64,000 bases of DNA from Cornus controversa (Eukaryota > Streptophyta > Magnoliopsida > Cornales > Cornaceae): assembly GCA_026545225.1 (NCBI GenBank), contig CM048847.1:5270001-5334000 (forward strand), written 5' to 3'. The position numbers were made by a program, and so were the translations under genes. The notes under the pieces were generated by a model. That model was not told the DNA's origin, searched no databases, and was given only the letters and a program-made list of their open reading frames with translations. Below are positions 6,652-56,280 of this stretch, piece after piece. Position 1 is the first letter of the stretch. Each line of letters begins with the position of its first letter.

Positions 6652-7030
6652 TGTCACGCCCCGGTTTCCGACACCCGGTTAGGAGCGAAGGGAACGGGGG
6701 TGAATCCGTAATTTCACCTCAAGTCCTCACAAATTACTCTCATTATAATCATTTCTATTGCGGAAGCATTCTATATGCACACCCTTCAAGTGGCATTAGA
6801 TCATCAAAGGCCCTTGCACATGATTTTCACCTTTAGTTCTATACATATAAACCACTAAGTTCCGGACCTCAACTTTTTACACAGATGGAATTTGATTATG
6901 AAACCTATACCATTGGATATAGCTTTCAAAAATACTCAAGTTCAAAAAAAACCACACTCAATTCCGATTTAAAACGAAGAAATTACATCGAAACGAAGTT
7001 TGGACAAATTTTGAACCTTGCTGTGAATAG

Positions 7031-7276
7031 TAATCTCGATCAATCGAAATTGGATCTCGATCAATCGAAATCCATCTCGATTAATCGAGATTTTGACCCC
7101 ATCAATCGAAGAAAATAGCCTCTCGGTACTTTGGACCTGCAATATTTCGATTGATCGAAGTTGGGACTTCGATTGATCGAAATAAAGCTTAAAAATCCAT
7201 AAAAACTCGCAACCATTTCGATCAATCGAGATGGGCATCTCGATTAATCGAAATGGGCATTTCGATTAATCGAAAT
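7031..7276. repeat. Cluster of TCGATYRATCGA near-palindromes (array LTR)
   Basis: Eight full copies and one half copy lie in 246 bp, including perfect 16-bp palindromes of the form TTTCGATTAATCGAAA. The same cluster occurs in the other LTRs at 14796-15041, 22596-22841, 30399-30644, 38199-38444, 45999-46244 and 53801-54046, giving more than fifty copies in the array. It is the same motif as in the Athila-like elements, although the LTRs are otherwise unrelated. Confidence 0.9.
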
Positions 7277-7302
7277 GTACTGCCCAGTTTTTCCCAAACA
7301 CC

Positions 7303-7310
7303 TATATAAG
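7303..7310 (+). promoter_or_regulatory. Candidate TATA box on the plus strand (antisense to element)
   Basis: TATATAAG sits in the context CACCTATATAAGATC, 27 bp downstream of the motif cluster as read on the plus strand. It matches the plant TATA consensus better in this direction than in the coding direction (TATATAGG). It is repeated in every LTR at the same offset, for example 15068-15075. Use in either direction is inferred, not shown. Confidence 0.4.
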
Positions 7311-9475
7311 ATCAATTTGAACCCAAATCTCAACCAAACCACCTTAGATCATTCATAACTCATATGAATCATCTACCATTGATATAATATCATACTCACA
7401 CATCAACCTACACATTTGAATCTCAAATCTTGTATAATCATAGAAAATTCATCCAAAGTTCACAATGCACATAAAATTCAAGTGAACCAAACCATCCTCA
7501 TTTTTCCAAAGGTGATCCTCATTAACCCAACCATACAATCTAACTTATACATTGAGATCCTACAACCATGATTCCAAAATAAATCCACAACTCTAAACAT
7601 TTATATCCACGAAATTAAAATACAAGAGACAGAAGAATGCATTCATCCATTTAAATTCCAAATCCATACATAATCCATGGAACCATACACATAAGAATTC
7701 AAATGGCCCTTCTTGCATACATTCTACAAGTCTCAAATGAAGGAAGCCATTATACATACATTTCTCAAAAATCACTTTCCTACAAGTGTGGCACTTACAT
7801 TTGGATTTCACATACATAAGAAGGTACAAATGTAAAGGCAACACCACAACCATTGTCTACATGCCACAAGCCGGCATGGACATTTATCTACATCTCAAAA
7901 GAGCAAAAGTCCAAAAATAAGCTCAACATATCCATAGAGCCAATCATGCTTCGTCTTCCATTGGCGCCTTATCTAAAAATGTTTATATAAATATGGGGTG
8001 AGCAACACTGCGGCTCAGTAGGAATGATCCACCCAACCCCACTCTAACTCAGGCAGCCATGCATGGATGCATATGAAATCCCTACATGTCTACATGACAA
8101 GTATACATGCTTTTAACCCATAAACAAACACGTTTTTCAAATCATGCGTGATGCTTCACATCTCAATGCATCTACATATGCATATATATATATATATATC
8201 CAATTGAGCAAGCCACAATATATATATATATAACTCACGCCACATAAATCCAGAAATCACTTCAATGGGGACTAGCTTATCACTCCATCCATAGTAAGGG
8301 TCTCTTCGGCACCCAAACTCTGCTTGTGCTTTATCGGTTTACTAATCCGAAGGGAGCACCTCCTCTTGGCCAAGTTTTGGGTCTTTCACCCTAGGGACCA
8401 TTCCCTCACCTTAATTCTCAATGTTGTCACGCCCCAAAAACTCGCTTTTCACATAGTGCACATAATCACATCAATGCACTTATTCCACACCATGAATGCA
8501 TTTTCTTTTGTCAAATCAATGCATTTTCCTTTCCCTCAAGATTGTCACAATGCCATAACACTCATACCATGAAAATCACCATGCTTATGCATTTAACAAG
8601 GAAAATCATATCTTTCATGCACAAGTCTATAAAATTCACATTTTTCATGTTTTCACCGAATGATCACATTTTTCATCAAGCACATTCATAGTCTCATTTG
8701 CACATACACAACATATATAAGTTCTAACCAACATGCTAGACATTGATACATGCATAATCACATTAGTATACATATATACACATATACATAACCCTAAACT
8801 CAAGAAATCCCAATCTATCTTTCATGTCACAATTATGTGACCTATAGAATCAAAGTAAAGATGAGTCTAGCACCCCTACCTCAAATTCCCAAGCTTGGAA
8901 TCCAACTTTGAGAAATTCCAGCTTTCTCAACTTCACAAAACGGAGACTTTGATCGGTTCAAACCGATGCCCTTGATGTCCCCTACACACTTTCCTTCTTT
9001 AAGATCTTCCAAATCACACCTTAAGGCCCTCAAACTCTAGAGAGAAGGGAGAGAGATGAAGTGGGATACATAGAGAGAGAGAGAGATCTGTAAAATGAAA
9101 TGTCTCAGACCCTTTTCGATATTTATCTCAACCCTAGGGGCGCGAAATGACCATTTTACCCCTAGCCACTTTATGTACCTTCCCGAGCTCGGAATTAATT
9201 CCTGAAAACTCCGTTGGACTCGAAATCACTTCCTTAACATTCTAAATATTTCGTTTAGTTCCCAAAATTCCCGGACCCACTTAACCTAATCCCGGGCCCC
9301 CGTTGACCAAAAAGTCAAACTTTCCCAAAAGTCGCCAAAACTTCCCAAAACCATATTCCAACCTTCTAAACATGTTTCCTGCATCCAAAACATGTTAAAT
9401 ATCATTTAAAATGCATTTAAAGCAATAAATGACAAAAATAAAAAAAACCGGCCAAAATTGGGCACGGTCTCTACA

Positions 9476-9486
9476 ACCTCCCAACC
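9476..9486 (-). other. Polypurine tract, unit 1
   Basis: The minus strand reads GGTTGGGAGGT immediately before the LTR start TGTAGAGACC. This is the expected primer for plus-strand DNA synthesis. The same tract lies next to each LTR at 17276, 25079, 32879, 40679 and 48481. Confidence 0.8.
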
Positions 9487-9521
9487 TTATAAGAATTTCG
9501 TCCTCGAAATTAGAATGTACC

Positions 9522-12500
9522 TCAAGTGATGAACAACTCGGGATACTTTGAGCGGACTTCTTGTTCTCGCTCCCACGTAGCCTCCTCCACCCCATGATGC
9601 ATCCAAAGCACTTTAACCAATGGAATGGTTTTGCCCCGAAGCACTTGTTCTCTAGTGTCCAAAATCAGAATCGGCCTCTCCTTGTATGACACGCCCTCCT
9701 CCACCTCAAGGTCTGCCCAATCAAGCACATGTGAAGGGTCCGGTTCATACTTCCTCATCATAGACACATGGAAAGTGTTGTGCACACTTGACAATTGCGG
9801 TGGCAATGCCAAGCGATAAGCAACCTCTCCTACCCGATCCAAAATCTCAAATGGCCCGATAAATCGTGGTGCAAGCTTGCCACTACGACCGAACCTCATC
9901 AAACCTCTCCGTGGTGAGACCTTCAGAAAAACATGATCTCCCACCTCAAATGCCAATGGTCGCCGTCTTCTATCAGCATAGCTTTTTTGACGACTCTGGG
10001 CTGTAAGCAATCTTTGTCGAATTAACTTGATCTTCTCTGTGGTTTCCCGAACTAAATTCGGTCCCAAAGAAACTGTCTCCCCTACATCAGTCCAACAAAC
10101 AGGTGACCTACACGGTCTACCATACAAAGCCTCAAATGGAGCCATCTCAATGCTAGCTTGATAGCTATTATTGTATGCAAACTCCACCAAAGGAAGGTGA
10201 TCCTCCCAACTGCCCCGAAGATCAAGTACACATGCTCGTAGCATATCCTCCAGAATCTGTATAGTACGCTCTGACTGACCATCCGTCTGAGGATGAAAAG
10301 CAGTACTAAAGTGAAGGTCCGTATCAAGTGCTGCCTGGAAACTCTGCCAAAATCGAGATGTAAATCGCGGGTCTCTATCTGAAACAATAGAAACTGGCAC
10401 GCCATGAAGCCTAAGGATCTGCTCAATATACAATATACTGAGAGTATCCACATCATCTGTCACTCTAATGGGAATAAAATGAGCTACCTTCGTCAATCTG
10501 TCAACGACCACCCAAACTGCGTCGTGACCCTTCCTCGACCTTGGAAGCCCCGTCACAAAATCCATAGTGACATGCTCCCATTTCCACATAGCCACAGGCA
10601 ATGGCTGCAACAACCCCGCTGGTCTCTGATGCTCGGCCTGCACTTGTTGACAAGTGAGGCACCTCGCCACAAACTGAGCTACTTCCTTTTTCATACCCTT
10701 CCACCAATACTGTCGTCGTAGGTTATGATACATCTTGGTACCACCCGGATGTACTGCTAGTCTCGAGTTGTGAAACTCCCTCAAAATCTCATCTCGACAA
10801 GCTAAAGGAACAAACGTCTTCCCTTTGAATCTCATGCTCTCATCTGAATGAACTGTCCATCCTTCCACCACTTCACCACCCGAAATCCGTATGCGAATAG
10901 TCTCAACCTCACTATCCTTCCTCTGCTCTTCAATCACTCTACTCACAAGAGTTGGTTGAGCGATAAGAGTAAATAACATTTCCGTTCCATCATCCTCACT
11001 GAAATGTAATCCCATTTCTGGGATGTCTTCCATCATCTTCCACTCCCGTATGGCTAAGCTCGCTAAGCTACCATGTGACTTCCTACTCAGTGCATCCGCC
11101 ACTACATTGGCCTTTCCCGGATGATATTGTAAGTCGAAGTCATAGTCCTCCATATACTCCATCCACCTCCGTTGCCTCATATTCAAATCCTTTTGTGAGA
11201 AAAGGTATTTGAGACTTTTGTGATCCGAAAACACTTCAAACTTCTCACCATACAAATAATGTCTCCACACCTTAAGTGCAAAGATCACGGCTGCCAATTC
11301 CAAGTCGTGTGTCGGGTAATTTTGTTCGTGCGTCTTCAACTGCCTTGAACCATACGCCACTACTTGTTCGGTTTGCATTAGCACACATCCCAAACCAAGT
11401 CGTGAAGCGTCACAATAAATTGTATACCCCAACCCACGTTCTGGAATGATCAAAATTGGAGCCGAAGTCAACCGGCTCTTCAATTCCATGAATGCATGCT
11501 CGCAAGCATCATCCCACACAAACTTCACTCCTTTTCGGGTAAGCTTTGTCATTGGTGCTGCCAATCGCGAAAAGTCCTTCACAAACCTCCGATAATACCC
11601 TGCCAATCCCAAGAAACTACGTATCTCAAATACGCTCTTAGGCTTTTCCCAAACCATCACCGCCTCTATCTTGGATGGATCTACGGTTACTCCTCCTTCG
11701 GCCACAACATGCCCAAGGAATTTCACTTCTTCTAGCCAAAATTCACATTTTTCATATTTGGCATATAATTGATGTTCTCTTAGCAGCTGCAACACAATCC
11801 TCAAGTGACCTTCGTGCTCCTCTTCCGAAGACGAGTACACTAGGATGTCATCGACAAATACAACCACAAACTTGTCCAAGTAAGCATTGAACACTCTATG
11901 CATTAGATCCATGAATGCCGCCGGTGCATTTGTCAAACCAAATGGCATCACCAAAAATTCATAATGCCCGTATCGTGTGCGAAAAGCAGTTTTTGGAATG
12001 TCCGCCTCTCTAATCCCCAACTGATAGTAGCCCGACCTCAAGTCTATCTTTGAGAAACACCTCGAACCCTTAAGTTGATCGAACAAGTCATCTATCCTTG
12101 GCAAGGGATACTTATTTTTGATCGTTGCCCGATTCAACTTCCTATAGTCAATGCAAAGCCGCAAAGACCCGTCCTTCTTCTTAGCAAAAAGAACCGGAGC
12201 TCCCCAAGGCGATGTACTAGGGCGTACGAATCCCTTGTCTAGTAGCTCTTGTAATTGGTCCTTCAACTCTTTCAACTCAGCCGGTGCCATTCGGTACGGT
12301 GCCATAGAAATGGGCGCGGTACCTGGAGCAAGATCTATCACAAACTCCACTTCTCGTTTCGGAGGCAACTGTGTCAATTCCCCCGGAAATACGTCCATAA
12401 ACTCACACACTACACGAGGAAGCTCTCCAAGTGTCTCATCATCACCATCAACTAGTAGGCTCGCTAAGAAATGCCCAAGCCCTCTCTGATCACTCAAACC

Positions 12501-12890
12501 ATGCAAAGATGACAAGTAGAAGTCATCCCGCTCCCCCACAAAACATATACTAACACCAGAGGATGTACACAAGGTCACTCTTCCCCGATGACAATCAATA
12601 TTGGCTCTGTAGGTCGATAGCCAATCCATACCCAAGATTACATCAAAGCTAGACATCTCAAGAAGAATGAAATCAAACACTAGTCGATGTCCCGAAATCT
12701 CGATCTCACAAGATCGGCACACATCACTCAAAACCACTCTACCACCAACTGGCGTATCAATGGATAAAATCGAGTCCAGTGATGACACCTCCAACCCCAA
12801 AGTACAAGCAAATGCATATGATATGAATGAATGTGATGCACCTGAATCTACTAAAACCCTAGCCCACGAGCTAGATACAAGAAATGTACC
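9522..12890 (-). CDS. pol: pol of array unit 1: protease-RT-RNase H-integrase-chromodomain
   Basis: The open frame follows directly on the gag termination codon in the same frame and encodes about 1122 residues. In order: aspartic protease with VDSGASHSF (D15, G17) and ILGMDWL (85-91); RT with CIDYRKLN (about 246-253) and the catalytic FVDD at 345-348; RNase H with D494, E531, D556 and D599; integrase zinc region ending in C743 and C746; integrase core with D776, D837 and E873, 35 residues between the last two; then a GPY-like region and a chromodomain (about 1075-1120, [16 protein letters not shown]). The chromodomain is what places it in the chromoviruses and is known to guide integration to marked chromatin. 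No obvious start codon opens the frame, so expression as Gag-Pol is inferred. It looks whole. Confidence 0.93.
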
Positions 12891-14132
12891 TCAGACCACT
12901 GACGGTCCTGCCGAGGTCTCTGCCTGAACATGAGTAAAAGCACGGCCTTGTGACCTCTGGCCCTGCTGTCCTGCACCCTGATATCCCGACTGCTGACTGG
13001 GAGCACTAGACGTGACTCCTCTAGCAGGTGCCCGAGAACTCTGAACTAAAGGCGCTGTCTGCTGTGGTGGCAATGCCCTAAAACCTATTTGTGAAGTCAT
13101 AGGCTGCATAGGACGCTGCAGCGAACCAGTACCACCCTGCACACTCTTTTTCTGTGGGCAATCCCAACTAATGTGCCCCATTTGATGACAATGGTAGCAC
13201 TTTTTATCTGCCATTAACGGAACTTGCCCTTGAGTACACTCGGCCATTCTGTGTCCTGGTTTCTGGCAATTGAAACAGACTATCCTTGATCGAAAAGATC
13301 TAGAAGGTATAGCCACAGAACTCACTGATTGAGTTGGTTGCCTTTGTGAGGATGACCCACCAATCCTCATCTTCTTTCTAGCACGATTATCCGTAAGGGA
13401 TCCCATGCTTCTTGTTTGGTTATGTGCTTCTCTTATTCTTTGATTATCATTGCTGAACTCTTCAGAAATCAATGCTCTCTCCACTACTGCTGCATAGTTG
13501 GTCAAGCCTAAAATCCCAACCTTGTCTCTTATGTAGGTTCGGAGACCTCTTATGAATTGCTTAATTTTAAGCTCTTCTGTTGGGATCATCTCCTTTGCAA
13601 ACCTAGCCAAGGAGGTAAAATTTGTTTCGTACTCCATCACCGTCATTGTCCCTTGAACAAGGTTAAAGAATTCTCTCCTCATACTATCTTTCATTGTCAC
13701 TGGAAAGTACTTCTCGAAGAAAAGTACTTGGAATGTATCCCATTCCATTATCTCCAAATCATGGTAATCTCCCAAGAACTTCCACCAACGTTTGGCGTCA
13801 TCCTTGAGGTAATGAGTGGCTACCTTAACTTTCAAGTCCTCCTCAATTTCAAGTACATTAAGGAGTGTAACCATCTCATCCAACCAGCTTTCAGCTACCA
13901 TTGGATCGGGTCCCCCAGAATACGACGGTGGACTATGTTTCTTAACATGTCCCAACGCCGTTATCATCCTATTAGGAGGAGCTGCTCTAGGTGGAGCTTG
14001 GGTCTCCTCTTGAGTTTCCCGTTGTGTTTCCCTTGCAATTTGTCGCATAGTAGCGACCATGTCGCGCATAAATTGCTCTCCTCCAATAGGGACCACTTCC
14101 GGTGTCCTCTCACGAGCTCTTCTTGGTGGCAT
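12891..14132 (-). CDS. gag: gag of array unit 1
   Basis: The protein is 413 aa, starting MPPRRARERT. Residues 95-200 form the Retrotrans_gag capsid-like domain (RWWKFLGDYHDLE, FFEKYFP, REFFNLVQGTMTVMEYE, FTSLARF). Two CCHC zinc knuckles follow, C286-C289-H294-C299 and C312-C315-H320-C325, for binding genomic RNA. The tail (331-413) is rich in Q, S, G and P. The ATG is the first in frame after the primer site, 270 bp into the internal region. The frame ends in one termination codon, present at the same place in all six units, and pol continues in the same frame. Read-through at such a codon is a known route to Gag-Pol in some LTR retrotransposons. It shares one tail variant with unit 6 only. 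Confidence 0.93.
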   Translation of the reverse strand: MPPRRARERTPEVVPIGGEQFMRDMVATMRQIARETQRETQEETQAPPRAAPPNRMITALGHVKKHSPPSYSGGPDPMVAESWLDEMVTLLNVLEIEEDLKVKVATHYLKDDAKRWWKFLGDYHDLEIMEWDTFQVLFFEKYFPVTMKDSMRREFFNLVQGTMTVMEYETNFTSLARFAKEMIPTEELKIKQFIRGLRTYIRDKVGILGLTNYAAVVERALISEEFSNDNQRIREAHNQTRSMGSLTDNRARKKMRIGGSSSQRQPTQSVSSVAIPSRSFRSRIVCFNCQKPGHRMAECTQGQVPLMADKKCYHCHQMGHISWDCPQKKSVQGGTGSLQRPMQPMTSQIGFRALPPQQTAPLVQSSRAPARGVTSSAPSQQSGYQGAGQQGQRSQGRAFTHVQAETSAGPSVV

Positions 14133-14401
14133 CCTTCTATATAGATGACAAGAATATATTTAGAATTTGTGCACGAATCTATGGGACCAATTCACATCAT
14201 GCATACTGAACATGCTAAGGTACTTCACAATTAGCATGTTATGTAAACAATTAAGCACACAAAAGTTTCCAAGTAATATGCACTTAATCCCTAACTTATA
14301 CTTATAACCTCAATTCACAATTTTAGAAGTCATCAAGTCCTTTCAATCCAAAATGTGGCCTAACCATTTCCCGTCGTCCGTAGGTATTCAAACCCGGTTA
14401 A

Positions 14402-14413
14402 GCTCTGATACCA
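14402..14413 (-). other. Primer-binding site, unit 1 (tRNA-iMet)
   Basis: TGGTATCAGAGC on the minus strand is complementary to the 3' end of plant initiator tRNA-Met. It lies three bases (ACA) inside the edge of LTR2. It marks LTR2 as the 5' LTR of unit 1 and fixes the element orientation. Confidence 0.92.
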
Positions 14414-14416
14414 TGT

Positions 14417-17275
14417 TGTCACGCCCCGGTTTCCGACACCCGGTTAGGAGCGAAGGGAACGGGGGTGAATCCGTAATTTCACCTCAAGTCCTCACAAATT
14501 ACTCTCATTATAATCATTTCTATTGCGGAAGCATTCTATATGCACACCCTTCAAGTGGCATTAGATCATCAAAGGCCCTTGCACATGATTTTCACCTTTA
14601 GTTCTATACATATAAACCACTAAGTTCCGGACCTCAACTTTTTACACAGATGGAATTTGATTATGAAACCTATACCATTGGATATAGCTTTCAAAAATAC
14701 TCAAGTTCAAAAAAAACCACACTCAATTCCGATTTAAAACGAAGAAATTACATCGAAACGAAGTTTGGACAAATTTTGAACCTTGCTGTGAATAGTAATC
14801 TCGATCAATCGAAATTGGATCTCGATCAATCGAAATCCATCTCGATTAATCGAGATTTTGACCCCATCAATCGAAGAAAACAGCCTCTCAGTACTTTGGA
14901 CCTGCAATATTTCGATTGATCGAAGTTGGGACTTCGATTGATCGAAATAAAGCTTAAAAATCCATAAAAACTCGCAACCATTTCGATCAATCGAGATGGG
15001 CATCTCGATTAATCGAAATGGGCATTTCGATTAATCGAAATGTACTGCCCAGTTTTTCCCAAACACCTATATAAGATCAATTTGAACCCAAATCTCAACC
15101 AAACCACCTTAGATCATTCATAACTCATATGAATCATCTACCATTGATATAATATCATACTCACACATCAACCTACACATTTGAATCTCAAATCTTGTAT
15201 AATCATAGAAAATTCATCCAAAGTTCACAATGCACATAAAATTCAAGTGAACCAAACCATCCTCATTTTTCCAAAGGTGATCCTCATTAACCCAACCATA
15301 CAATCTAACTTATACATTGAGATCCTACAACCATGATTCCAAAATAAATCCACAACTCTAAACATTTATATCCACGAAATTAAAATACAAGAGACAGAAG
15401 AATGCATTCATCCATTTAAATTCCAAATCCATACATAATCCATGGAACCATACACATAAGAATTCAAATGGCCCTTCTTGCATACATTCTACAAGTCTCA
15501 AATGAAGGAAGCCATTATACATACATTTCTCAAAAATCACTTTCCTACAAGTGTGGCACTTACATTTGGATTTCACATACATAAGAAGGTACAAATGTAA
15601 AGGCAACACCACAACCATTGTCTACATGCCACAAGCCGGCATGGACATTTATCTACATCTCAAAAGAGCAAAAGTCCAAAAATAAGCTCAACATATCCAT
15701 AGAGCCAATCATGCTTCGTCTTCCATTGGCGCCTTATCTAAAAATGTTTATATAAATATGGGGTGAGCAACACTGCGGCTCAGTAGGAATGATCCACCCA
15801 ACCCCACTCTAACTCAGGCGGCCATGCATGGATGCATATGAAATCCCTACATGTCTACATGACAAGTATACATGCTTTTAACCCATAAACAAACACGTTT
15901 TTCAAATCATGCGTGATGCTTCACATCTCAATGCATCTACATATGCATATATATATATATATATATATCCAATTGAGCAAGCCACAATATATATATATAT
16001 AACTCACGCCACATAAATCCAGAAATCACTTCAATGGGGACTAGCTTATCACTCCATCCATAGTAAGGGTCTCTTCGGCACCCAAACTCTGCTTGTGCTT
16101 TATCGGTTTACTAATCCGAAGGGAGCACCTCCTCTTGGCCAAGTTTTGGGTCTTTCACCCTAGGGACCATTCCCTCACCTTAATTCTCAATGTTGTCACG
16201 CCCCAAAAACTCGCTTTTCACATAGTGCACATAATCACATCAATGCACTTATTCCACACCATGAATGCATTTTCTTTTGTCAAATCAATGCATTTTCCTT
16301 TCCCTCAAGATTGTCACAATGCCATAACACTCATACCATGAAAATCACCATGCTTATGCATTTAACAAGGAAAATCATATCTTTCATGCACAAGTCTATA
16401 AAATTCACATTTTTCATGTTTTCACCGAATGATCACATTTTTCATCAAGCACATTCATAGTCTCATTTGCACATACACAACATATATAAGTTCTAACCAA
16501 CATGCTAGACATTGATACATGCATAATCACATTAGTATACATATATACACATATACATAACCCTAAACTCAAGAAATCCCAATCTATCTTTCATGTCACA
16601 ATTATGTGACCTATAGAATCAAAGTAAAGATGAGTCTAGCACCCCTACCTCAAATTCCCAAGCTTGGAATCCAACTTTGAGAAATTCCAGCTTTCTCAAC
16701 TTCACGAAACGGAGACTTTGATCGGTTCAAACCGATGCCCTTGATGTCCCCTACACACTTTCCTTCTTCAAGATCTTCCAAATCACACCTTAAGGCCCTC
16801 AAACTCTAGAGAGAAGGGAGAGAGATGAAGTGGGATACATAGAGAGAGAGAGAGATCTGTAAAATGAAATGTCTCAGACCCTTTTCGATATTTATCTCAA
16901 CCCTAGGGGCGCGAAATGACCATTTTACCCCTAGCCACTTAATGTACCTTCCCGAGCTCAGAATTAATTCCTGAAAACTCCGTTGGACTCGAAATCACTT
17001 CCTTAACATTCTAAATATTTCGTTTAGTCCATAGTCAAAAATAAAATTTCTCAGAATTTTCCCGAAATTCCCGGACCCACTTAACCTAATCCCGGGCCCC
17101 CGTTGACCAAAAAGTCAAACTTTCCCAAAAGTCGCCAAAACTTCCCAAAACCATATTCCAACCTTCTAAACATGTTCCCTGCATCCAAAACATGTTAAAT
17201 ATCATTTAAAATGCATTTAAAGCAATAAATGACAAAAATAAAAAAAACCGGCCAAAATTGGGCACGGTCTCTACA
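14417..17275 (-). repeat. LTR2 of the array (shared by units 1 and 2)
   Basis: The repeat is 2859 bp, with (AT)11 in the first AT tract and the motif cluster at 14796-15041. It serves at once as the 5' LTR of unit 1 and the 3' LTR of unit 2. By eye it has only about two private substitutions, far fewer than LTR1. Confidence 0.95.
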
Positions 17276-17286
17276 ACCTCCCAACC
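17276..17286 (-). other. Polypurine tract, unit 2
   Basis: GGTTGGGAGGT on the minus strand, abutting LTR2. Confidence 0.8.
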
Positions 17287-17321
17287 TTATAAGAATTTCG
17301 TCCTCGAAATTAGAATGTACC

Positions 17322-20300
17322 TCAAGTGATGAACAACTCGGGATACTTTGAGCGGACTTCTTGTTCTCGCTCCCACGTAGCCTCCTCCACCCCATGATGC
17401 ATCCAAAGCACTTTAACCAATGGAATGGTTTTGCCCAGAAGCACTTGTTCTCTAGTGTCCAAAATCAGAATCGGCCTCTCCTTGTATGACACGCCCTCCT
17501 CCACCTCAAGGTCTGCCCAATCAAGCACATGTGAAGGGTCCGGTTCATACTTCCTCATCATAGACACATGGAAAGTGTTGTGCACACTTGACAATTGCGG
17601 TGGCAAAGCCAAGCGATAAGCAACCTCTCCTACCCGATCCGAAATCTCAAATGGCCCGATAAATCATGGTGCAAGCTTGCCACTACGACCGAACCTCATC
17701 AAACCTCTCCGTGGTGAGACCTTCAGAAAAATATGATCTCCCACCTCAAATGCCAATGGTCGCCGTCTTCTATCAGCATAGCTTTTCTGACGACTCTGGG
17801 CTGTAAGCAATCTTTGTCGAATTAACTTGATCTTCTCTGTGGTTTCCCGAACTAAATTCGGTCCCAAAGAAACTGTCTCCCCTACATCAGTCCAACAAAC
17901 AGGTGACCTACACGGTCTACCATACAAAGCCTCAAATGGAGCCATCTCAATGCTAGCTTGATAGCTATTATTGTATGCAAACTCCACCAAAGGAAGGTGA
18001 TCCTCCCAACTGCCCCGAAGATCAAGTACACATGCTCGTAGCATATCCTCCAGAATCTGTATAGTACGCTCTGACTGACCATCCGTCTGAGGATGAAAAG
18101 CAGTACTAAAGTGAAGGTTCGTATCAAGTGCTGCCTGGAAACTCTGCCAAAATCGAGATGTAAATCGCGGGTCTCTATCTGAAACAATAGAAACTGGCAC
18201 GCCATGAAGCCTAAGGATCTGCTCAATATACAATATACTGAGAGTATCCACATCATCTGTCACTCTAATGGGAATAAAATGAGCTACCTTCGTCAATCTG
18301 TCAACGACCACCCAAACTGCGTCGTGACCCTTCCTCGACCTTGGAAGCCCCGTCACAAAATCCATAGTGACATGCTCCCATTTCCACATAGCCACAGGCA
18401 ATGGCTGCAACAACCCCGCTGGTCTCTGATGCTCGGCCTGCACTTGTTGACAAGTGAGGCACCTCGCCACAAACTGAGCTACTTCCTTTTTCATACCCTT
18501 CCACCAATACTGTCGTCGTAGGTTATGATACATCTTGGTACCACCCGGATGTACTGCTAGTCTCGAGTTGTGAAACTCCCTCAAAATCTCATCTCGACAA
18601 GCTAAAGGAACAAACGTCTTCCCTTTGAATCTCATGCTCTCATCTGAATGAACTGTCCATCCTTCCACCACTTCACCACCCGAAATCCGTATGCGAATAG
18701 TCTCAACCTCACTATCCTTCCTCTGCTCTTCAATCACTCTACTCACAAGAGTTGGTTGAGCGATAAGAGTAAATAACATTGCCGTTCCATCATCCTCACT
18801 GAAATGTAATCCCATTTCTGGGATGTCTTCCATCATCTTCCACTCCCGTATGGCTAAGCTCGCTAAGCTACCATGTGACTTCCTACTCAGTGCATCCGCC
18901 ACTACATTGGCCTTTCCCGGATGATATTGTAAGTCGAAGTCATAGTCCTCCATATACTCCATCCACCTCCGTTGCCTCATATTCAAATCCTTTTGTGAGA
19001 AAAGGTATTTGAGACTTTTGTGATCCGAAAACACTTCAAACTTCTCACCATACAAATAATGTCTCCACACCTTAAGTGCAAAGATCACGGCTGCCAATTC
19101 CAAGTCGTGTGTCGGGTAATTTTGTTCGTGCGTCTTCAACTGCCTTGAACCATACGCCACTACTTGTTCGGTTTGCATTAGCACACATCCCAAACCAAGT
19201 CGTGAAGCGTCACAATAAATTGTATACCCCAACCCACGTTCTGGAATGATCAAAATTGGAGCCGAAGTCAACCGGCTCTTCAATTCCATGAATGCATGCT
19301 CGCAAGCATCATCCCACACAAACTTCACTCCTTTTCGGGTAAGCTTTGTCATTGGTGCTGCCAATCGCGAAAAGTCCTTCACAAACCTCCGATAATACCC
19401 TGCCAATCCCAAGAAACTACGTATCTCAAATACGCTCTTAGGCTTTTCCCAAACCATCACCGCCTCTATCTTGGATGGATCTACGGTTACTCCTCCTTCG
19501 GCCACAACATGCCCAAGGAATTTCACTTCTTCTAGCCAAAATTCACATTTTTCATATTTGGCATATAATTGATGTTCTCTTAGCAGCTGCAACACAATCC
19601 TCAAGTGACCTTCGTGCTCCTCTTCCGAAGACGAGTACACTAGGATGTCATCGACAAATACAACCACAAACTTGTCCAAGTAAGCATTGAACACTCTATG
19701 CATTAGATCCATGAATGCCGCCGGTGCATTTGTCAAACCAAATGGCATCACCAAAAATTCATAATGCCCGTATCGTGTGCGAAAAGCAGTTTTTGGAATG
19801 TCCGCCTCTCTAATCCCCAACTGATAGTAGCCCGACCTCAAGTCTATCTTTGAGAAACACCTCGAACCCTTAAGTTGATCGAACAAGTCATCTATCCTTG
19901 GCAAGGGATACTTATTTTTGATCGTTGCCCGATTCAACTTCCTATAGTCAATGCAAAGCCGCAAAGACCCGTCCTTCTTCTTAGCAAAAAGAACCGGAGC
20001 TCCCCAAGGCGATGTACTAGGGCGTACGAATCCCTTGTCTAGTAGCTCTTGTAATTGGTCCTTCAACTCTTTCAACTCAGCCGGTGCCATTCGGTACGGT
20101 GCCATAGAAATGGGCGCGGTACCTGGAGCAAGATCTATCACAAACTCCACTTCTCGTTTCGGAGGCAACTGTGTCAATTCCCCCGGAAATACGTCCATAA
20201 ACTCACACACTACACGAGGAAGCTCTCCAAGTGTCTCATCATCACCATCAACTAGTAGGCTCGCTAAGAAATGCCCAAGCCCTCTCTGATCACTCAAACC

Positions 20301-22201: not shown

Positions 22202-22213
22202 GCTCTGATACCA
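22202..22213 (-). other. Primer-binding site, unit 2 (tRNA-iMet)
   Basis: TGGTATCAGAGC on the minus strand, three bases inside LTR3. Confidence 0.92.
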
Positions 22214-22216
22214 TGT

Positions 22217-45335: not shown

Positions 45336-45604
45336 CCTTCTATATAGATGACAAGAATATATTTAGAATTTGTGCACGAATCTATGGGACCAATTCACAT
45401 CATGCATACTGAACATGCTAAGGTACTTCACAATTAGCATGTTATGTAAACAATTAAGCACACAAAAGTTTCCAAGTAATATGCACTTAATCCCTAACTT
45501 ATACTTATAACCTCAATTCACAATTTTAGAAGTCATCAAGTCCTTTCAATCCAAAATGTGGCCTAACCATTTCCCGTCGTCCGTAGGTATTCAAACCCGG
45601 TTAA

Positions 45605-45616
45605 GCTCTGATACCA
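45605..45616 (-). other. Primer-binding site, unit 5 (tRNA-iMet)
   Basis: TGGTATCAGAGC on the minus strand, three bases inside LTR6. Confidence 0.92.
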
Positions 45617-45619
45617 TGT

Positions 45620-48480
45620 TGTCACGCCCCGGTTTCCGACACCCGGTTAGGAGCGAAGGGAACGGGGGTGAATCCGTAATTTCACCTCAAGTCCTCACAA
45701 ATTACTCTCATTATAATCATTTCTATTGCGGAAGCATTCTATATGCACACCCTTCAAGTGGCATTAGATCATCAAAGGCCCTTGCACATGATTTTCACCT
45801 TTAGTTCTATACATATAAACCACTAAGTTCCGGACCTCAACTTTTTACACAGATGGAATTTGATTATGAAACCTATACCATTGGATATAGCTTTCAAAAA
45901 TACTCAAGTTCAAAAAAAACCACACTCAATTCCGATTTAAAACGAAGAAATTACATCGAAACGAAGTTTGGACAAATTTTGAACCTTGCTGTGAATAGTA
46001 ATCTCGATCAATCGAAATTGGATCTCGATCAATCGAAATCCATCTCGATTAATCGAGATTTTGACCCCATCAATCGAAGAAAACAGCCTCTCGGTACTTT
46101 GGACCTGCAATATTTCGATTGATCGAAGTTGGGACTTCGATTGATCGAAATAAAGCTTAAAAATCCATAAAAACTCGCAACCATTTCGATCAATCGAGAT
46201 GGGCATCTCGATTAATCGAAATGGGCATTTCGATTAATCGAAATGTACTGCCCAGTTTTTCCCAAACACCTATATAAGATCAATTTGAACCCAAATCTCA
46301 ACCAAACCACCTTAGATCATTCATAACTCATATGAATCATCTACCATTGATATAATATCATACTCACACATCAACCTACACATTTGAATCTCAAATCTTG
46401 TATAATCATAGAAAATTCATCCAAAGTTCACAATGCATATAAAATTCAAGTGAACCAAACCATCCTCATTTTTCCAAAGGTGATCCTCATTAACCCAACC
46501 ATACAATCTAACTTATACATTGAGATCCTACAACCATGATTCCAAAATAAATCCACAACTCTAAACATTTATATCCACGAAATTAAAATACAAGAGACAG
46601 AAGAATGCATTCATCCATTTAAATTCCAAATCCATACATAATCCATGGAACCATACACATAAGAATTCAAATGGCCCTTCTTGCATACATTCTACAAGTC
46701 TCAAATGAAGGAAGCCATTATACATACATTTCTCAAAAATCACTTTCCTACAAGTGTGGCACTTACATTTGGATTTCACATACATAAGAAGGTACAAATG
46801 TAAAGGCAACACCACAACCATTGTCTACATGCCACAAGCCGGCATGGACATTTATCTACATCTCAAAAGAGCAAAAGTCCAAAAATAAGCTCAACATATC
46901 CATAGAGCCAATCATGCTTCGTCTTCCATTGGCGCCTTATCTAAAAATGTTTATATAAATATGGGGTGAGCAACACTGCGGCTCAGTAGGAATGATCCAC
47001 CCAACCCCACTCTAACTCAGGCGGCCATGCATGGATGCATATGAAATCCCTACATGTCTACATGACAAGTATACATGCTTTTAACCCATAAACAAACACG
47101 TTTTTCAAATCATGCGTGATGCTTCACATCTCAATGCATCTACATATGCATATATATATATATATATATATATCCAATTGAGCAAGCCACAATATATATA
47201 TATATAACTCACGCCACATAAATCCAGAAATCACTTCAATGGGGACTAGCTTATCACTCCATCCATAGTAAGGGTCTCTTCGGCACCCAAACTCTGCTTG
47301 TGCTTTATCGGTTTACTAATCCGAAGGGAGCACCTCCTCTTGGCCAAGTTTTGGGTCTTTCACCCTAGGGACCATTCCCTCACCTTAATTCTCAATGTTG
47401 TCACGCCCCAAAAACTCGCTTTTCACATAGTGCACATAATCACATCAATGCACTTATTCCACACCATGAATGCATTTTCTTTTGTCAAATCAATGCATTT
47501 TCCTTTCCCTCAAGATTGTCACAATGCCATAACACTCATACCATGAAAATCACCATGCTTATGCATTTAACAAGGAAAATCATATCTTTCATGCACAAGT
47601 CTATAAAATTCACATTTTTCATGTTTTCACCGAATGATCACATTTTTCATCAAGCACATTCATAGTCTCATTTGCACATACACAACATATATAAGTTCTA
47701 ACCAACATGCTAGACATTGATACATGCATAATCACATTAGTATACATATATACACATATACATAACCCTAAACTCAAGAAATCCCAATCTATCTTTCATG
47801 TCACAATTATGTGACCTATAGAATCAAAGTAAAGATGAGTCTAGCACCCCTACCTCAAATTCCCAAGCTTGGAATCCAACTTTGAGAAATTCCAGCTTTC
47901 TCAACTTCACGAAACGGAGACTTTGATCGGTTCAAACCGATGCCCTTGATGTCCCCTACACACTTTCCTTCTTCAAGATCTTCCAAATCACACCTTAAGG
48001 CCCTCAAACTCTAGAGAGAAGGGAGAGAGATGAAGTGGGATACATAGAGAGAGAGAGAGATCTGTAAAATGAAATGTCTCAGACCCTTTTCGATATTTAT
48101 CTCAACCCTAGGGGCGCGAAATGACCATTTTACCCCTAGCCACTTAATGTACCTTCCCGAGCTCGGAATTAATTCCTGAAAACTCCGTTGGACTCGAAAT
48201 CACTTCCTTAACATTCTAAATATTTCGTTTAGTCCATAGTCAAAAATAAAATTTCTCAGAATTTTCCCGAAATTCCCGGACCCACTTAACCTAATCCCGG
48301 GCCCCCGTTGACCAAAAAGTCAAACTTTCCCAAAAGTCGCCAAAACTTCCCAAAACCATATTCCAACCTTCTAAACATGTTCCCTGCATCCAAAACATGT
48401 TAAATATCATTTAAAATGCATTTAAAGCAATAAATGACAAAAATAAAAAAAACCGGCCAAAATTGGGCACGGTCTCTACA
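45620..48480 (-). repeat. LTR6 of the array (shared by units 5 and 6)
   Basis: The repeat is 2861 bp with (AT)12, the same tract length as LTR3. The motif cluster is at 45999-46244. About one private substitution was seen. Confidence 0.95.
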
Positions 48481-48491
48481 ACCTCCCAACC
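48481..48491 (-). other. Polypurine tract, unit 6
   Basis: GGTTGGGAGGT on the minus strand, abutting LTR6. Confidence 0.8.
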
Positions 48492-48526
48492 TTATAAGAA
48501 TTTCGTCCTCGAAATTAGAATGTACC

Positions 48527-51500
48527 TCAAGTGATGAACAACTCGGGATACTTTGAGCGGACTTCTTGTTCTCGCTCCCACGTAGCCTCCTCCACCCCAT
48601 GATGCATCCAAAGCACTTTAACCAATGGAATGGTTTTGCCCCGAAGCACTTGTTCTCTAGTGTCCAAAATCAGAATCGGCCTCTCCTTGTATGACACGCC
48701 CTCCTCCACCTCAAGGTCTGCCCAATCAAGCACATGTGAAGGGTCCGGTTCATACTTCCTCATCATAGACACATGGAAAGTGTTGTGCACACTTGACAAT
48801 TGCGGTGGCAATGCCAAGCGATAAGCAACCTCTCCTACCCGATCCAAAATCTCAAATGGCCCGATAAATCGTGGTGCAAGCTTGCCACTACGACCGAACC
48901 TCATCAAACCTCTCCGTGGTGAGACCTTCAGAAAAACATGATCTCCCACCTCAAATGCCAATGGTCGCCGTCTTCTATCAGCATAGCTTTTCTGACGACT
49001 CTGGGCTGTAAGCAATCTTTGTCGAATTAACTTGATCTTCTCTGTGGTTTCCCGAACTAAATTCGGTCCCAAAGAAACTGTCTCCCCTACATCAGTCCAA
49101 CAAACAGGTGACCTACACGGTCTACCATACAAAGCCTCAAATGGAGTCATCTCAATGCTAGCTTGATAGCTATTATTGTATGCAAACTCCACCAAAGGAA
49201 GGTGATCCTCCCAACTGCCCCGAAGATCAAGTACACATGCTCGTAGCATATCCTCCAGAATCTGTATAGTACGCTCTGACTGACCATCCGTCTGAGGATG
49301 AAAAGCAGTACTAAAGTGAAGGTCCGTATCAAGTGCTGCCTGGAAACTCTGCCAAAATCGAGATGTAAATCGCGGGTCTCTATCTGAAACAATAGAAACT
49401 GGCACGCCATGAAGCCTAAGGATCTGCTCAATATACAATATACTGAGAGTATCCACATCATCTGTCACTCTAATGGGAATAAAATGAGCTACCTTCGTCA
49501 ATCTGTCAACGACCACCCAAACTGCGTCGTGACCCTTCCTCGACCTTGGAAGCCCCGTCACAAAATCCATAGTGACATGCTCCCATTTCCACATAGCCAC
49601 AGGCAATGGCTGCAACAACCCCGCTGGTCTCTGATGCTCGGCCTGCACTTGTTGACAAGTGAGGCACCTCGCCACAAACTGAGCTACTTCCTTTTTCATA
49701 CCCTTCCACCAATACTGTCGTCGTAGGTTATGATACATCTTGGTACCACCCGGATGTACTGCTAGTCTCGAGTTGTGAAACTCCCTCAAAATCTCATCTC
49801 GACAAGCTAAAGGAACAAACGTCTTCCCTTTGAATCTCATGCTCTCATCTGAATGAACTGTCCATCCTTCCACCACTTCACCACCCGAAATCCGTATGCG
49901 AATAGTCTCAACCTCACTATCCTTCCTCTGCTCTTCAATCACTCTACTCACAAGAGTTGGTTGAGCGATAAGAGTAAATAACATTGCCGTTCCATCATCC
50001 TCACTGAAATGTAATCCCATTTCTGGGATGTCTTCCATCATCTTCCACTCCCGTATGGCTAAGCTCGCTAAGCTACCATGTGACTTCCTACTCAGTGCAT
50101 CCGCCACTACATTGGCCTTTCCCGGATGATATTGTAAGTCGAAGTCATAGTCCTCCATATACTCCATCCACCTCCGTTGCCTCATATTCAAATCCTTTTG
50201 TGAGAAAAGGTATTTGAGACTTTTGTGATCCGAAAACACTTCAAACTTCTCACCATACAAATAATGTCTCCACACCTTAAGTGCAAAGATCACGGCTGCC
50301 AATTCCAAGTCGTGTGTCGGGTAATTTTGTTCGTGCGTCTTCAACTGCCTTGAACCATACGCCACTACTTGTTCGGTTTGCATTAGCACACATCCCAAAC
50401 CAAGTCGTGAAGCGTCACAATAAATTGTATACCCCAACCCACGTTCTGGAATGATCAAAATTGGAGCCGAAGTCAACCGGCTCTTCAATTCCATGAATGC
50501 ATGCTCGCAAGCATCATCCCACACAAACTTCACTCCTTTTCGGGTAAGCTTTGTCATTGGTGCTGCCAATCGCGAAAAGTCCTTCACAAACCTCCGATAA
50601 TACCCTGCCAATCCCAAGAAACTACGTATCTCAAATACGCTCTTAGGCTTTTCCCAAACCATCACCGCCTCTATCTTGGATGGATCTACGGTTACTCCTC
50701 CTTCGGCCACAACATGCCCAAGGAATTTCACTTCTTCTAGCCAAAATTCACATTTTTCATATTTGGCATATAATTGATGTTCTCTTAGCAGCTGCAACAC
50801 AATCCTCAAGTGACCTTCGTGCTCCTCTTCCGAAGACGAGTACACTAGGATGTCATCGACAAATACAACCACAAACTTGTCCAAGTAAGCATTGAACACT
50901 CTATGCATTAGATCCATGAATGCCGCCGGTGCATTTGTCAAACCAAATGGCATCACCAAAAATTCATAATGCCCGTATCGTGTGAGAAAAGCAGTTTTTG
51001 GAATGTCCGCCTCTCTAATCCCCAACTGATAGTAGCCCGACCTCAAGTCTATCTTTGAGAAACACCTCGAACCCTTAAGTTGATCGAACAAGTCATCTAT
51101 CCTTGGCAAGGGATACTTATTTTTGATCGTTGCCCGATTCAACTTCCTATAGTCAATGCAAAGCCGCAAAGACCCGTCCTTCTTCTTAGCAAAAAGAACC
51201 GGAGCTCCCCAAGGCGATGTACTAGGGCGTACGAATCCCTTGTCTAGTAGCACTTGTAATTGGTCCTTCAACTCTTTCAACTCAGCCGGTGCCATTCGGT
51301 ACGGTGCCATAGAAATGGGCGCGGTACCTGGAGCAAGATCTATCACAAACTCCACTTCTCGTTTCGGAGGCAACTGTGTCAATTCCCCCGGAAATACGTC
51401 CATAAACTCACACACTACACGAGGAAGCTCTCCAAGTGTCTCATCATCACCATCAACTAGTAGGCTCGCTAAGAAATGCCCAAGCCCTCTCTGATCACTC

Positions 51501-51895
51501 AAACCATGCAAAGATGACAAGTAGAAGTCATCCCGCTCCCCCACAAAACATATACTAACACCAGAGGATGTACACAAGGTCACTCTTCCCCGATGACAAT
51601 CAATATTGGCTCTGTAGGTCGATAGCCAATCCATACCCAAGATTACATCAAAGCTAGACATCTCAAGAAGAATGAAATCAAACACTAGTCGATGTCCCGA
51701 AATCTCGATCTCACAAGATCGGCACACATCACTCAAAACCACTCTACCACCAACTGGCGTATCAATGGATAAAATCGAGTCCAGTGATGACACCTCCAAC
51801 CCCAAAGTACAAGCAAATGCATATGATATGAATGAATGTGATGCACCTGAATCTACTAAAACCCTAGCCCACGAGCTAGATACAAGAAATGTACC
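48527..51895 (-). CDS. pol: pol of array unit 6
   Basis: An uninterrupted frame that carries the RT-region and integrase-region variants shared with unit 4, plus one private variant near the start of RT. It belongs to the first unit downstream of the outermost 5' LTR (LTR7). Confidence 0.92.
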
Positions 51896-53137
51896 TCAGA
51901 CCACTGACGGTCCTGCCGAGGTCTCTGCCTGAACATGAGTAAAAGCACGGCCTTGTGACCTCTGGCCCTGCTGTCCTGCACCCTGATATCCCGACTGCTG
52001 ACTGGGAGCACTAGACGTGACTCCTCTAGCAGGTGCCCGAGAACTCTGAACTAAAGGCGCTGTCTGCTGTGGTGGCAATGCCCTAAAACCTATTTGTGAA
52101 GTCATAGGCTGCATAGGACGCTGCAGCGAACCAGTACCACCCTGCACACTCTTTTTCTGTGGGCAATCCCAACTAATGTGCCCCATTTGATGACAATGGT
52201 AGCACTTTTTATCTGCCATTAACGGAACTTGCCCTTGAGTACACTCGGCCATTCTGTGTCCTGGTTTCTGGCAATTGAAACAGACTATCCTTGATCGAAA
52301 AGATCTAGAAGGTATAGCCACAGAACTCACTGATTGAGTTGGTTGCCTTTGTGAGGATGACCCACCAATCCTCATCTTCTTTCTAGCACGATTATCCGTA
52401 AGGGATCCCATGCTTCTTGTTTGGTTATGTGCTTCTCTTATTCTTTGATTATCATTGCTGAACTCTTCAGAAATCAATGCTCTCTCCACTACTGCTGCAT
52501 AGTTGGTCAAGCCTAAAATCCCAACCTTGTCTCTTATGTAGGTTCGGAGACCTCTTATGAATTGCTTAATTTTAAGCTCTTCTGTTGGGATCATCTCCTT
52601 TGCAAACCTAGCCAAGGAGGTAAAATTTGTTTCGTACTCCATCACCGTCATTGTCCCTTGAACAAGGTTAAAGAATTCTCTCCTCATACTATCTTTCATT
52701 GTCACTGGAAAGTACTTCTCGAAGAAAAGTACTTGGAATGTATCCCATTCCATTATCTCCAAATCATGGTAATCTCCCAAGAACTTCCACCAACGTTTGG
52801 CGTCATCCTTGAGGTAATGAGTGGCTACCTTAACTTTCAAGTCCTCCTCAATTTCAAGTACATTAAGGAGTGTAACCATCTCATCCAACCAGCTTTCAGC
52901 TACCATTGGATCGGGTCCCCCAGAATACGACGGTGGACTATGTTTCTTAACATGTCCCAACGCCGTTATCATCCTATTAGGAGGAGCTGCTCTAGGTGGA
53001 GCTTGGGTCTCCTCTTGAGTTTCCCGTTGTGTTTCCCTTGCAATTTGTCGCATAGTAGCGACCATGTCGCGCATAAATTGCTCTCCTCCAATAGGGACCA
53101 CTTCCGGTGTCCTCTCACGAGCTCTTCTTGGTGGCAT
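51896..53137 (-). CDS. gag: gag of array unit 6
   Basis: A 413-aa frame. In the tail it agrees with unit 1 at the far end of the array and differs from units 2-5, while its pol agrees with unit 4. The two end units may keep the original state at this gag site. Confidence 0.92.
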   Translation of the reverse strand: MPPRRARERTPEVVPIGGEQFMRDMVATMRQIARETQRETQEETQAPPRAAPPNRMITALGHVKKHSPPSYSGGPDPMVAESWLDEMVTLLNVLEIEEDLKVKVATHYLKDDAKRWWKFLGDYHDLEIMEWDTFQVLFFEKYFPVTMKDSMRREFFNLVQGTMTVMEYETNFTSLARFAKEMIPTEELKIKQFIRGLRTYIRDKVGILGLTNYAAVVERALISEEFSNDNQRIREAHNQTRSMGSLTDNRARKKMRIGGSSSQRQPTQSVSSVAIPSRSFRSRIVCFNCQKPGHRMAECTQGQVPLMADKKCYHCHQMGHISWDCPQKKSVQGGTGSLQRPMQPMTSQIGFRALPPQQTAPLVQSSRAPARGVTSSAPSQQSGYQGAGQQGQRSQGRAFTHVQAETSAGPSVV

Positions 53138-53406
53138 CCTTCTATATAGATGACAAGAATATATTTAGAATTTGTGCACGAATCTATGGGACCAATTCAC
53201 ATCATGCATACTGAACATGCTAAGGTACTTCACAATTAACATGTTATGTAAACAATTAAGCACACAAAAGTTTCCAAGTAATATGCACTTAATCCCTAAC
53301 TTATACTTATAACCTCAATTCACAATTTTAGAAGTCATCAAGTCCTTTCAATCCAAAATGTGGCCTAACCATTTCCCGTCGTCCGTAGGTATTCAAACCC
53401 GGTTAA

Positions 53407-53418
53407 GCTCTGATACCA
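53407..53418 (-). other. Primer-binding site, unit 6 (tRNA-iMet)
   Basis: TGGTATCAGAGC on the minus strand, three bases inside LTR7. Confidence 0.92.
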
Positions 53419-53421
53419 TGT

Positions 53422-56280
53422 TGTCACGCCCCGGTTTCCGACACCCGGTTAGGAGCGAAGGGAACGGGGGTGAATCCGTAATTTCACCTCAAGTCCTCAC
53501 AAATTACTCTCATTATAATCATTTCTATTGCGGAAGCATTCTATATGCACACCCTTCAAGTGGCATTAGATCATCAAAGGCCCTTGCACATGATTTTCAC
53601 CTTTAGTTCTATACATATAAACCACTAAGTTCCGGACCTCAACTTTTTACACAGATGGAATTTGATTATGAAACCTATACCATTGGATATAGCTTTCAAA
53701 AATACTCAAGTTCAAAAAAAACCACACTCAATTCCGATTTAAAACGAAGAAATTACATCGAAACGAAGTTTGGACAAATTTTGAACCTTGCTGTGAATAG
53801 TAATCTCGATCAATCGAAATTGGATCTCGATCAATCGAAATCCATCTCGATTAATCGAGATTTTGACCCCATCAATCGAAGAAAACAGCCTCTCGGTACT
53901 TTGGACCTGCAATATTTCGATTGATCGAAGTTGGGACTTCGATTGATCGAAATAAAGCTTAAAAATCCATAAAAACTCGCAACCATTTCGATCAATCGAG
54001 ATGGACATCTCGATTAATCGAAATGGGCATTTCGATTAATCGAAATGTACTGCCCAGTTTTTCCCAAACACCTATATAAGATCAATTTGAACCCAAATCT
54101 CAACCAAACCACCTTAGATCATTCATAACTCATATGAATCATCTACTATTGATATAATATCATACTCACACATCAACCTACACATTTGAATCTCAAATCT
54201 TGTATAATCATAGAAAATTCATCCAAAGTTCACAATGCACATAAAATTCAAGTGAACCAAACCATCCTCATTTTTCCAAAGGTGATCCTCATTAACCCAA
54301 CCATACAATCTAACTTATACATTGAGATCCTACAACCATGATTCCAAAATAAATCCACAACTCTAAACATTTATATCCACGAAATTAAAATACAAGAGAC
54401 AGAAGAATGCATTCATCCATTTAAATTCCAAATCCATACATAATCCATGGAACCATACACATAAGAATTCAAATGGCCCTTCTTGCATACATTCTACAAG
54501 TCTCAAATGAAGGAAGCCATTATACATACATTTCTCAAAAATCACTTTCCTACAAGTGTGGCACTTACATTTGGATTTCACATACATAAGAAGGTACAAA
54601 TGTAAAGGCAACACCACAACCATTGTCTACATGCCACAAGCCGGCATGGACATTTATCTACATCTCAAAAGAGCAAAAGTCCAAAAATAAGCTCAACATA
54701 TCCATAGAGCCAATCATGCTTCGTCTTCCATTGGCGCCTTATCTAAAAATGTTTATATAAATATGGGGTGAGCAACACTGTGGCTCAGTAGGAATGATCC
54801 ACCCAACCCCACTCTAACTCAGGCGGCCATGCATGGATGCATATGAAATCCCTACATGTCTACATGACAAGTATACATGCTTTTAACCCATAAACAAACA
54901 CGTTTTTCAAATCATGCGTGATGCTTCACATCTCAATGCATCTACATATGCATATATATATATATATATATATCCAATTGAGCAAGCCACAATATATATA
55001 TATATAACTCACGCCACATAAATCCAGAAATCACTTCAATGGGGACTAGCTTATCACTCCATCCATAGTAAGGGTCTCTTCGGCACCCAAACTCTGCTTG
55101 TGCTTTATCGGTTTACTAATCCGAAGGGAGCACCTCCTCTTGGCCAAGTTTTGGGTCTTTCACCCTAGGGACCATTCCCTCACCTTAATTCTCAATGTTG
55201 TCACGCCCCAAAAACTCGCTTTTCACATAGTGCACATAATCACATCAATGCACTTATTCCACACCATGAATGCATTTTCTTTTGTCAAATCAATGCATTT
55301 TCCTTTCCCTCAAGATTGTCACAATGCCATAACACTCATACCATGAAAATCACCATGCTTATGCATTTAACAAGGAAAATCATATCTTTCATGCACAAGT
55401 CTATAAAATTCACATTTTTCATGTTTTCACCGAATGATCACATTTTTCATCAAGCACATTCATAGTCTCATTTGCACATACACAACATATATAAGTTCTA
55501 ACCAACATGCTAGACATTGATACATGCATAATCACATTAGTATACATATATACACATATACATAACCCTAAACTCAAGAAATCCCAATCTATCTTTCATG
55601 TCACAATTATGTGACCTATAGAATCAAAGTAAAGATGAGTCTAGCACCCCTACCTCAAATTCCCAAGCTTGGAATCCAACTTTGAGAAATTCCAGCTTTC
55701 TCAACTTCACGAAACGGAGACTTTGATCGGTTCAAACCGATGCCCTTGATGTCCCCTACACACTTTCCTTCTTCAAGATCTTCCAAATCACACCTTAAGG
55801 CCCTCAAACTCTAGAGAGAAGGGAGAGAGATGAAGTGGGATACATAGAGAGAGAGAGAGATCTGTAAAATGAAATGTCTCAGACCCTTTTCGATATTTAT
55901 CTCAACCCTAGGGGCGCGAAATGACCATTTTACCCCTAGCCACTTAATGTACCTTCCCGAGCTCGGAATTAATTCCTGAAAACTCCGTTGGACTCGAAAT
56001 CACTTCCTTAACATTCTAAATATTTCGTTTAGTCCATAGTCAAAAATAAAATTTCTCAGAATTTTCCCGAAATTCCCGGACCCACTTAACCTAATCCCGG
56101 GCCCCCGTTGACCAAAAAGTCAAACTTTCCCAAAAGTCGCCAAAACTTCCCAAAACCATATTCCAACCTTCTAAACATGTTCCCTGCATCCAAAACATGT
56201 TAAATATCATTTAAAATGCATTTAAAGTAATAAATGACAAAAATAAAAAAAATCAGCCAAAATTGGGCACGGTCTCTACA
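53422..56280 (-). repeat. LTR7 of the array (5'-terminal LTR)
   Basis: The repeat is 2859 bp with (AT)11 and the motif cluster at 53801-54046. It ends at 56280 directly against the second GGTTT. By eye it has about five private substitutions, more than any inner LTR, and differs from LTR1 at about a dozen sites. It is the outermost promoter-bearing LTR for transcription into unit 6. Confidence 0.95.

Follow-up and report, generated by a model that had tools for sequence, protein, structure and literature searches.

A stretch of 64,000 nucleotides from Cornus controversa (assembly GCA_026545225.1, contig CM048847.1, positions 5,270,001 to 5,334,000 of the forward strand; hereafter the window) contains a tandem array of a long terminal repeat (LTR) retrotransposon of the Ty3/gypsy type, in which neighbouring units share their LTRs. 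The array is located in the pol region of an older, decayed relative and appears to derive from a single integration; it occupies one target site, consists of six assembled units, and these units have exchanged sequence with each other. It is best explained, with a probability of roughly 0.55, by one insertion followed by unequal recombination and conversion in place. According to this explanation, a single minus-strand element, probably a Tekay-lineage chromovirus, would have integrated once into the pol of the relative with a 5-bp target duplication. Its LTRs would then have misaligned and recombined on sister chromatids or homologues, giving rise to more units, and later misaligned recombination between whole units would have led to a higher unit number and to the copying of sequence among units. 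Recombination of LTRs and units in place would account for the sharing of an LTR wherever two units meet, as well as for the presence of only one target duplication. For the first doubling, we infer recombination as the cause.

The block extends over 49.6 kb, from 6652 to 56280, and has an LTR at both ends. A preliminary description of this DNA, made from its letters only, had reported seven LTRs alternating with six internal regions of 4941 bp. This was borne out, with all six internal regions measuring exactly 4941 bp, while the lengths from LTR1 to LTR7 are 2824, 2859, 2862, 2859, 2859, 2861, and 2859 bp. The LTR borders were placed by recurring terminal letters; on the plus strand, all seven LTRs start with TGTCACG and end with CTCTACA. 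The period of about 7.80 kb given in that description holds for five units, with start-to-start distances of 7800-7803 bp between LTRs, but not for the first unit (7765 bp), since 31 bp are missing from LTR1 and its AT run is shorter. As the element lies on the minus strand, the LTR at 53422-56280 is its 5' LTR. The features of the array and its target are listed below with their coordinates in the window, together with notable single-nucleotide polymorphisms (SNPs).

2466..6651, plus strand: target, left part of the older decayed relative, with the gag match from 2466 and the pol match from 3740 (tblastn with unit-1 protein pieces; Pfam on 3653-4606)
6647..6651, no strand: left target duplication GGTTT
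6652..9475, minus strand: LTR1, outer 3' LTR, 2824 bp, lacking 31 bp near 9264, 7 private SNPs
9476..14416, minus strand: internal region 1, 4941 bp, with the gag frame at 12891-14159 and the pol frame at 9522-12890, separated by a single in-frame stop
14417..17275, minus strand: LTR2, shared
17276..22216, minus strand: internal region 2, pol frame stopping at 17664, 114 codons short
22217..25078, minus strand: LTR3, shared, zero private SNPs
25079..30019, minus strand: internal region 3
30020..32878, minus strand: LTR4, shared
32879..37819, minus strand: internal region 4, two SNPs in common with region 6 and one with region 5
37820..40678, minus strand: LTR5, shared, one SNP in common with LTR7
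40679..45619, minus strand: internal region 5
45620..48480, minus strand: LTR6, shared
48481..53421, minus strand: internal region 6
53422..56280, minus strand: LTR7, outer 5' LTR, 5 private SNPs, 3 of them within the last 54 bp
56281..56285, no strand: right target duplication GGTTT
56286..56660, plus strand: target, remaining C-terminus of pol, continuing at the right edge of the array

In a self-comparison of the window, the block is about 99.8% identical to its own copy shifted by one to five units, and a shift by one unit gives a 39.2-kb self-alignment at 99.8%. LTR1 is about 99.5-99.6% identical to the other LTRs across its first 2.6 kb. The 12 bases of internal region adjoining the left edges of LTR2 to LTR7 are identical in all six cases, and the same holds for the 12 bases adjoining the right edges of LTR1 to LTR6. 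Thus, no foreign sequence is located between the units, and a target duplication is present only around the block. Side-by-side or nested independent insertions were ruled out, as there is neither an additional target duplication nor foreign sequence between units. Chance resemblance was also ruled out, as about 39 kb align with themselves at 99.8%.

The single GGTTT pair around the 49.6-kb block had already been described and was confirmed at 6647-6651 and 56281-56285; the chance of such a 5-bp match between flanks is p ~0.001. The left flank matches the proteins of unit 1 in their order, with the pol pieces running from 3740 to near the left edge of the array, and the last pol piece resumes on the right flank. 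Joining the two flanks through a single GGTTT gives a collinear pol match with zero residues lost. It remains in frame across the junction for about 7-8 codons, until a frame shift of the target itself about 20 bp beyond, after which the match goes on for 116 residues in another frame. In addition, the target pol holds several stops. The collinear joined flanks, the frame shift, and the stops therefore identify the target as an older, decayed, plus-strand relative that was entered at one site. The target element has no stop at its gag-pol junction, which is spanned by the open frame 3653-4606. The collinearity of the target across the block supports one insertion site independently of the GGTTT pair, and the single integration event proposed in the preliminary description is thus upheld by two lines of evidence.

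One target duplication around the entire block would also be expected for a multimer that arose when tandem or circular templates were read through and reverse-transcribed and that then integrated in one step, with exchange between the units afterwards. This origin is rather unlikely. A complementary DNA (cDNA) of about 50 kb would be very long. In its favour, such multimers have been put forward as possible for plant tandems (PMC11899658), and tandem transcripts of two to five units have been reported for Cassandra elements (PMC7215508).

Each unit of the array carries minus-strand frames for gag (422 amino acids, stop to stop) and pol (1122 amino acids), which lie in the same frame and are separated by one stop codon in all six units. 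In unit 2, the pol frame comprises only 1008 amino acids and is truncated at its C-terminal end. Unit 1 has Pfam matches to Retrotrans_gag, RVP_2, RVT_1, RT_RNaseH, Integrase_H2C2, and SH3_Tf2-1 as well as a zinc knuckle, in the order gag, protease, reverse transcriptase, RNase H, and integrase. Pfam was run on pieces of this unit, and the integrase core was split by piece boundaries and hence unscored. The primer-site motif TGGTATCAGAGC, which we take to match the initiator-Met transfer RNA (tRNA), adjoins the LTR in all six units, and a tRNA scan with bacterial settings found nothing. The element is a Ty3/gypsy LTR retrotransposon on the minus strand. At the C-terminus of pol, the Pfam family Chromo matches with E = 0.0024 and 18.2 bits, under its cut-off of 25.1. 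The element is probably a chromovirus, and its layout and motifs are presumably those of the Tekay lineage. For a 562-residue piece of pol, the organisms named among the best 120 of 7980 scored matches are flowering plants. A search with gag gave three matches, one at 70% identity and two from Primulina at 29-30%.

The units are distinguished by 40 SNPs, 19 in the LTRs and 21 in the internal regions. The LTR alignment contains 57 variable columns, of which 38 are due to indels (the 31-bp gap in LTR1, the AT run, and one base) and were excluded from SNP counts, while the 21 variable columns of the internal alignment are SNPs only. The numbers of private SNPs are 7, 2, 0, 2, 1, 1, and 5 from LTR1 to LTR7 and 2, 5, 3, 3, 1, and 2 from internal region 1 to 6. 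The two outer LTRs, LTR1 and LTR7, make up 28% of the length but hold 12 of the 18 private LTR SNPs (one-sided p = 8.5e-4), corresponding to densities of 0.0021 for outer and 0.0004 for inner LTRs, a difference of about five times. This excess is firm; it may be caused by age, by conversion of the inner LTRs to a common state, by stronger methylation at the edges, or by averaging of inner units during assembly. With the direction of change inferred from the minority state, 11/12 private SNPs of the outer LTRs, 5/6 of the inner LTRs, and 7/16 of the internal regions are of the C-to-T type. Between LTR1 and LTR7, 13 SNP sites differ over 2824 bp. With substitution rates of 1.3e-8 and 6.5e-9 per site and year, which may not be those of the host, this would amount to some 0.18 to 0.35 million years. 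The five private SNPs of internal region 2 are located within 296 bp at its left end (17437-17732); this cluster looks converted from a diverged copy, and the pol frame of unit 2 ends early there. A multimer whose units had not exchanged sequence later would be expected to have LTRs of equal age, yet the private SNPs are concentrated in the outer two.

Six SNP sites are common to exactly two units, whereas 46 mutational hits would lead to an expectation of about 0.1 chance double hits at the same site, or 0.3 on a generous count. In a four-gamete test on these two-unit sites, 6 of 15 pairs fail. The shared SNPs and the failing pairs lead to the conclusion that the units exchanged sequence. Internal region 4 and LTR5 have three SNPs in common with internal region 6 and LTR7, at an offset of two units, and differ from them at sites between these common SNPs. 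This pattern is the trace expected of unequal exchange or conversion between units. The preliminary description had left a choice between expansion in place and integration or recombination of a multimer. Later change in place is supported by the two-unit SNPs, the four-gamete failures, and the outer-LTR excess, and the first duplication may have come either from recombination between LTRs or from insertion of a multimer.

To compare four histories, a single point-process likelihood was applied to the private SNPs. With all copies on one clock, the situation after a one-shot multimer, the fit is the worst of the four, with a log-likelihood (lnL) of -281.75 and one parameter. A history in which the outer LTRs are old and the core is younger reaches -278.58 with two parameters, and a single element with one LTR crossover (best x = 2807) followed by a star reaches -277.80 with three parameters including x. 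The best value, -275.20 with two parameters, is obtained when the outer LTRs change faster than the rest. The single-crossover and young-core histories, which both involve recombination, thus fit about equally. In a separate one-split scoring, which is superseded by the common likelihood above, the gain of the single-crossover history over one clock ranged from 0 to 3.95 lnL across six x, with values that are not comparable between x, and at x = 2785 this history passed that of an old shell. With the A/T site mentioned below re-polarised, the single-crossover history was the one model scored.

Several of these results weigh against recombination and conversion in place. A plain rate difference between outer and inner LTRs performs better than the single-crossover history with fewer parameters. 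The inner LTRs carry no derived alleles of either outer LTR, except at one unpolarised A/T site; under the single-crossover history they would be expected to have inherited some, and this history is held back for this reason. When the 14 differences of the outer LTRs (nine in LTR1, including two indels, and five in LTR7) are ordered, two violate the order for one crossover (P = 0.045). None of the 19 LTR SNP sites separates all inner LTRs from both outer LTRs, although a core renewed over a long time should show some such sites, and the young-core history is held back because of this. With regard to exchange, three of the six four-gamete failures involve site 3572, where the change is of the CHG C-to-T type and may be a recurrent mutation. 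When this site is left out, 3 of 10 pairs fail, all via site 3825, which shows a T-to-C change in the minority. Later exchange within a multimer could also mimic the better fit of the single-crossover history.

The higher SNP density of the outer LTRs and the better likelihood of an old shell compared to one clock would also fit integrase-independent capture, in which an old resident element gains younger cDNA or circles of its family by homologous recombination, resulting in an old shell with a young core. Recombination of cDNA with resident elements is reviewed as a further proposed route to such tandems in PMC12786077. Both private SNPs of internal region 1 (511 and 1505) are found in the left third of that region and both of internal region 6 (2771 and 4758) in its right half, a placement that fits one entry point between them but is a post hoc observation on four sites only. 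Capture is nevertheless improbable, as several LTR SNP sites would be expected to split inner from outer LTRs and none does, and as internal regions 1 and 6, with two private SNPs each, show no excess. A related, broader proposal, which is unlikely as well, regards the old resident element as a landing pad on which younger copies of the family, either brought in by homologous recombination or held close to the founder state by conversion, give rise to a satellite-like core flanked by two ageing outer LTRs. If so, the LTRs at the edges would record the age of the insertion while the core is continually renewed.

In contrast to these biological explanations, the assembly itself may have had an effect, in that the real number of units is different or reads from inner units were averaged so that the inner LTRs seem younger. 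The inner LTRs are near the majority state and the flank-anchored outer LTRs are not, the best of the four models simply sets the outer LTRs apart from the inner ones, and the units are highly similar, all of which would be consistent with averaging. However, private SNPs are present in each of the internal regions (1 to 5 per region), 34 of the 37 private sites are substitutions, and the widest interval between private sites is 7310 bp, which is within reach of ordinary long reads. The private sites could thus be dense enough for such reads to have assembled the array correctly, and an assembly effect is the most doubtful of the alternatives. We infer that six units are truly present in the plant, with the count resting on the assembly.

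For the array as such, there are precedents to be compared. Tandems with shared LTRs are common in plants and have been described for rice, Arabidopsis, almond, and cotton (PMC11899658). Among 28 clear cases in rice, 82% are Gypsy elements, of which 82% belong to Tekay, and target duplications of 5 nt are perfect in 10 of the 28, while Athila is the enriched lineage in Arabidopsis, almond, and cotton. One of the tandem loci lies inside a MULE transposon, and the unit number varies among alleles. The loci were limited to 40,000 bp, and the mechanism of tandem origin was left open by the authors (PMC11899658). The array in C. controversa resembles the rice loci TLI1 and TLI2 and the IDENTAM set in its alternating shared LTRs and internal regions, its high identity, and its target duplication only around the block. 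It also resembles most of these tandems in being a Gypsy element, and one of them in being nested in another transposon. In contrast to TLI1 and TLI2 with two units each (PMC11899658), it has six units over 49.6 kb. Tandemly arrayed TRIMs (L3I2, L5I4) also form shared-LTR arrays with flanking target duplication, but are small and non-coding (PMC4717578), unlike the 7.8-kb units with gag and pol frames described here. Cassandra elements form long arrays of near-identical shared-LTR units, with up to 12 units. They are also small and non-coding and contain a 5S ribosomal RNA sequence in the LTR (PMC7215508), whereas an Rfam scan of the window gave no family at its gathering score. The earlier view that long shared-LTR arrays are much rarer than two-unit forms is therefore only partly right, given how common tandems are (PMC11899658) and how long Cassandra arrays can be (PMC7215508). 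A full-size shared-LTR array of at least six coding units was not found among the titles and abstract starts of the literature listed, which is no proof of absence.

Shared-LTR tandems have already been published as common, and the array belongs to this known kind, of which it is a long and full-size example. It is distinguished by its six full-size coding units and by enough SNPs to trace its history. The 40 unit-distinguishing SNPs, together with a target that is open to lookup in other haplotypes, could allow in-place recombination and multimeric insertion to be told apart, and the array illustrates how a satellite-like block can originate from a full-size retrotransposon.

The sequence around the array contains further repeats. 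To the right of the end of the target pol, a 320-bp unit is present in 2.8 direct copies with about 94% matching (57034-57924); its consensus starts with TGTAATACCCC. An inverted pair of about 92% identity, 1-2409 and 58461-60839, lies with one member on each side of the block and is, because of this orientation, not formed by the target's own two LTRs, which would be in direct orientation. At 61549-62979, there are two plus-strand frames, the first without a Pfam match and the second with a weak match to an aspartyl protease family below the cut-off; judging from their motifs, they look like gag and protease of the Athila type. Palindrome-rich short tandem repeats of the ATCTCGATCAATCGA type occur in the LTRs of the array as well as on either side of it (2112-2225, 7033-7110, 58665-58712, and 63148-63451), and matches of LTR7 to the flanks consist only of such repeats and one further stretch of 79 bp.

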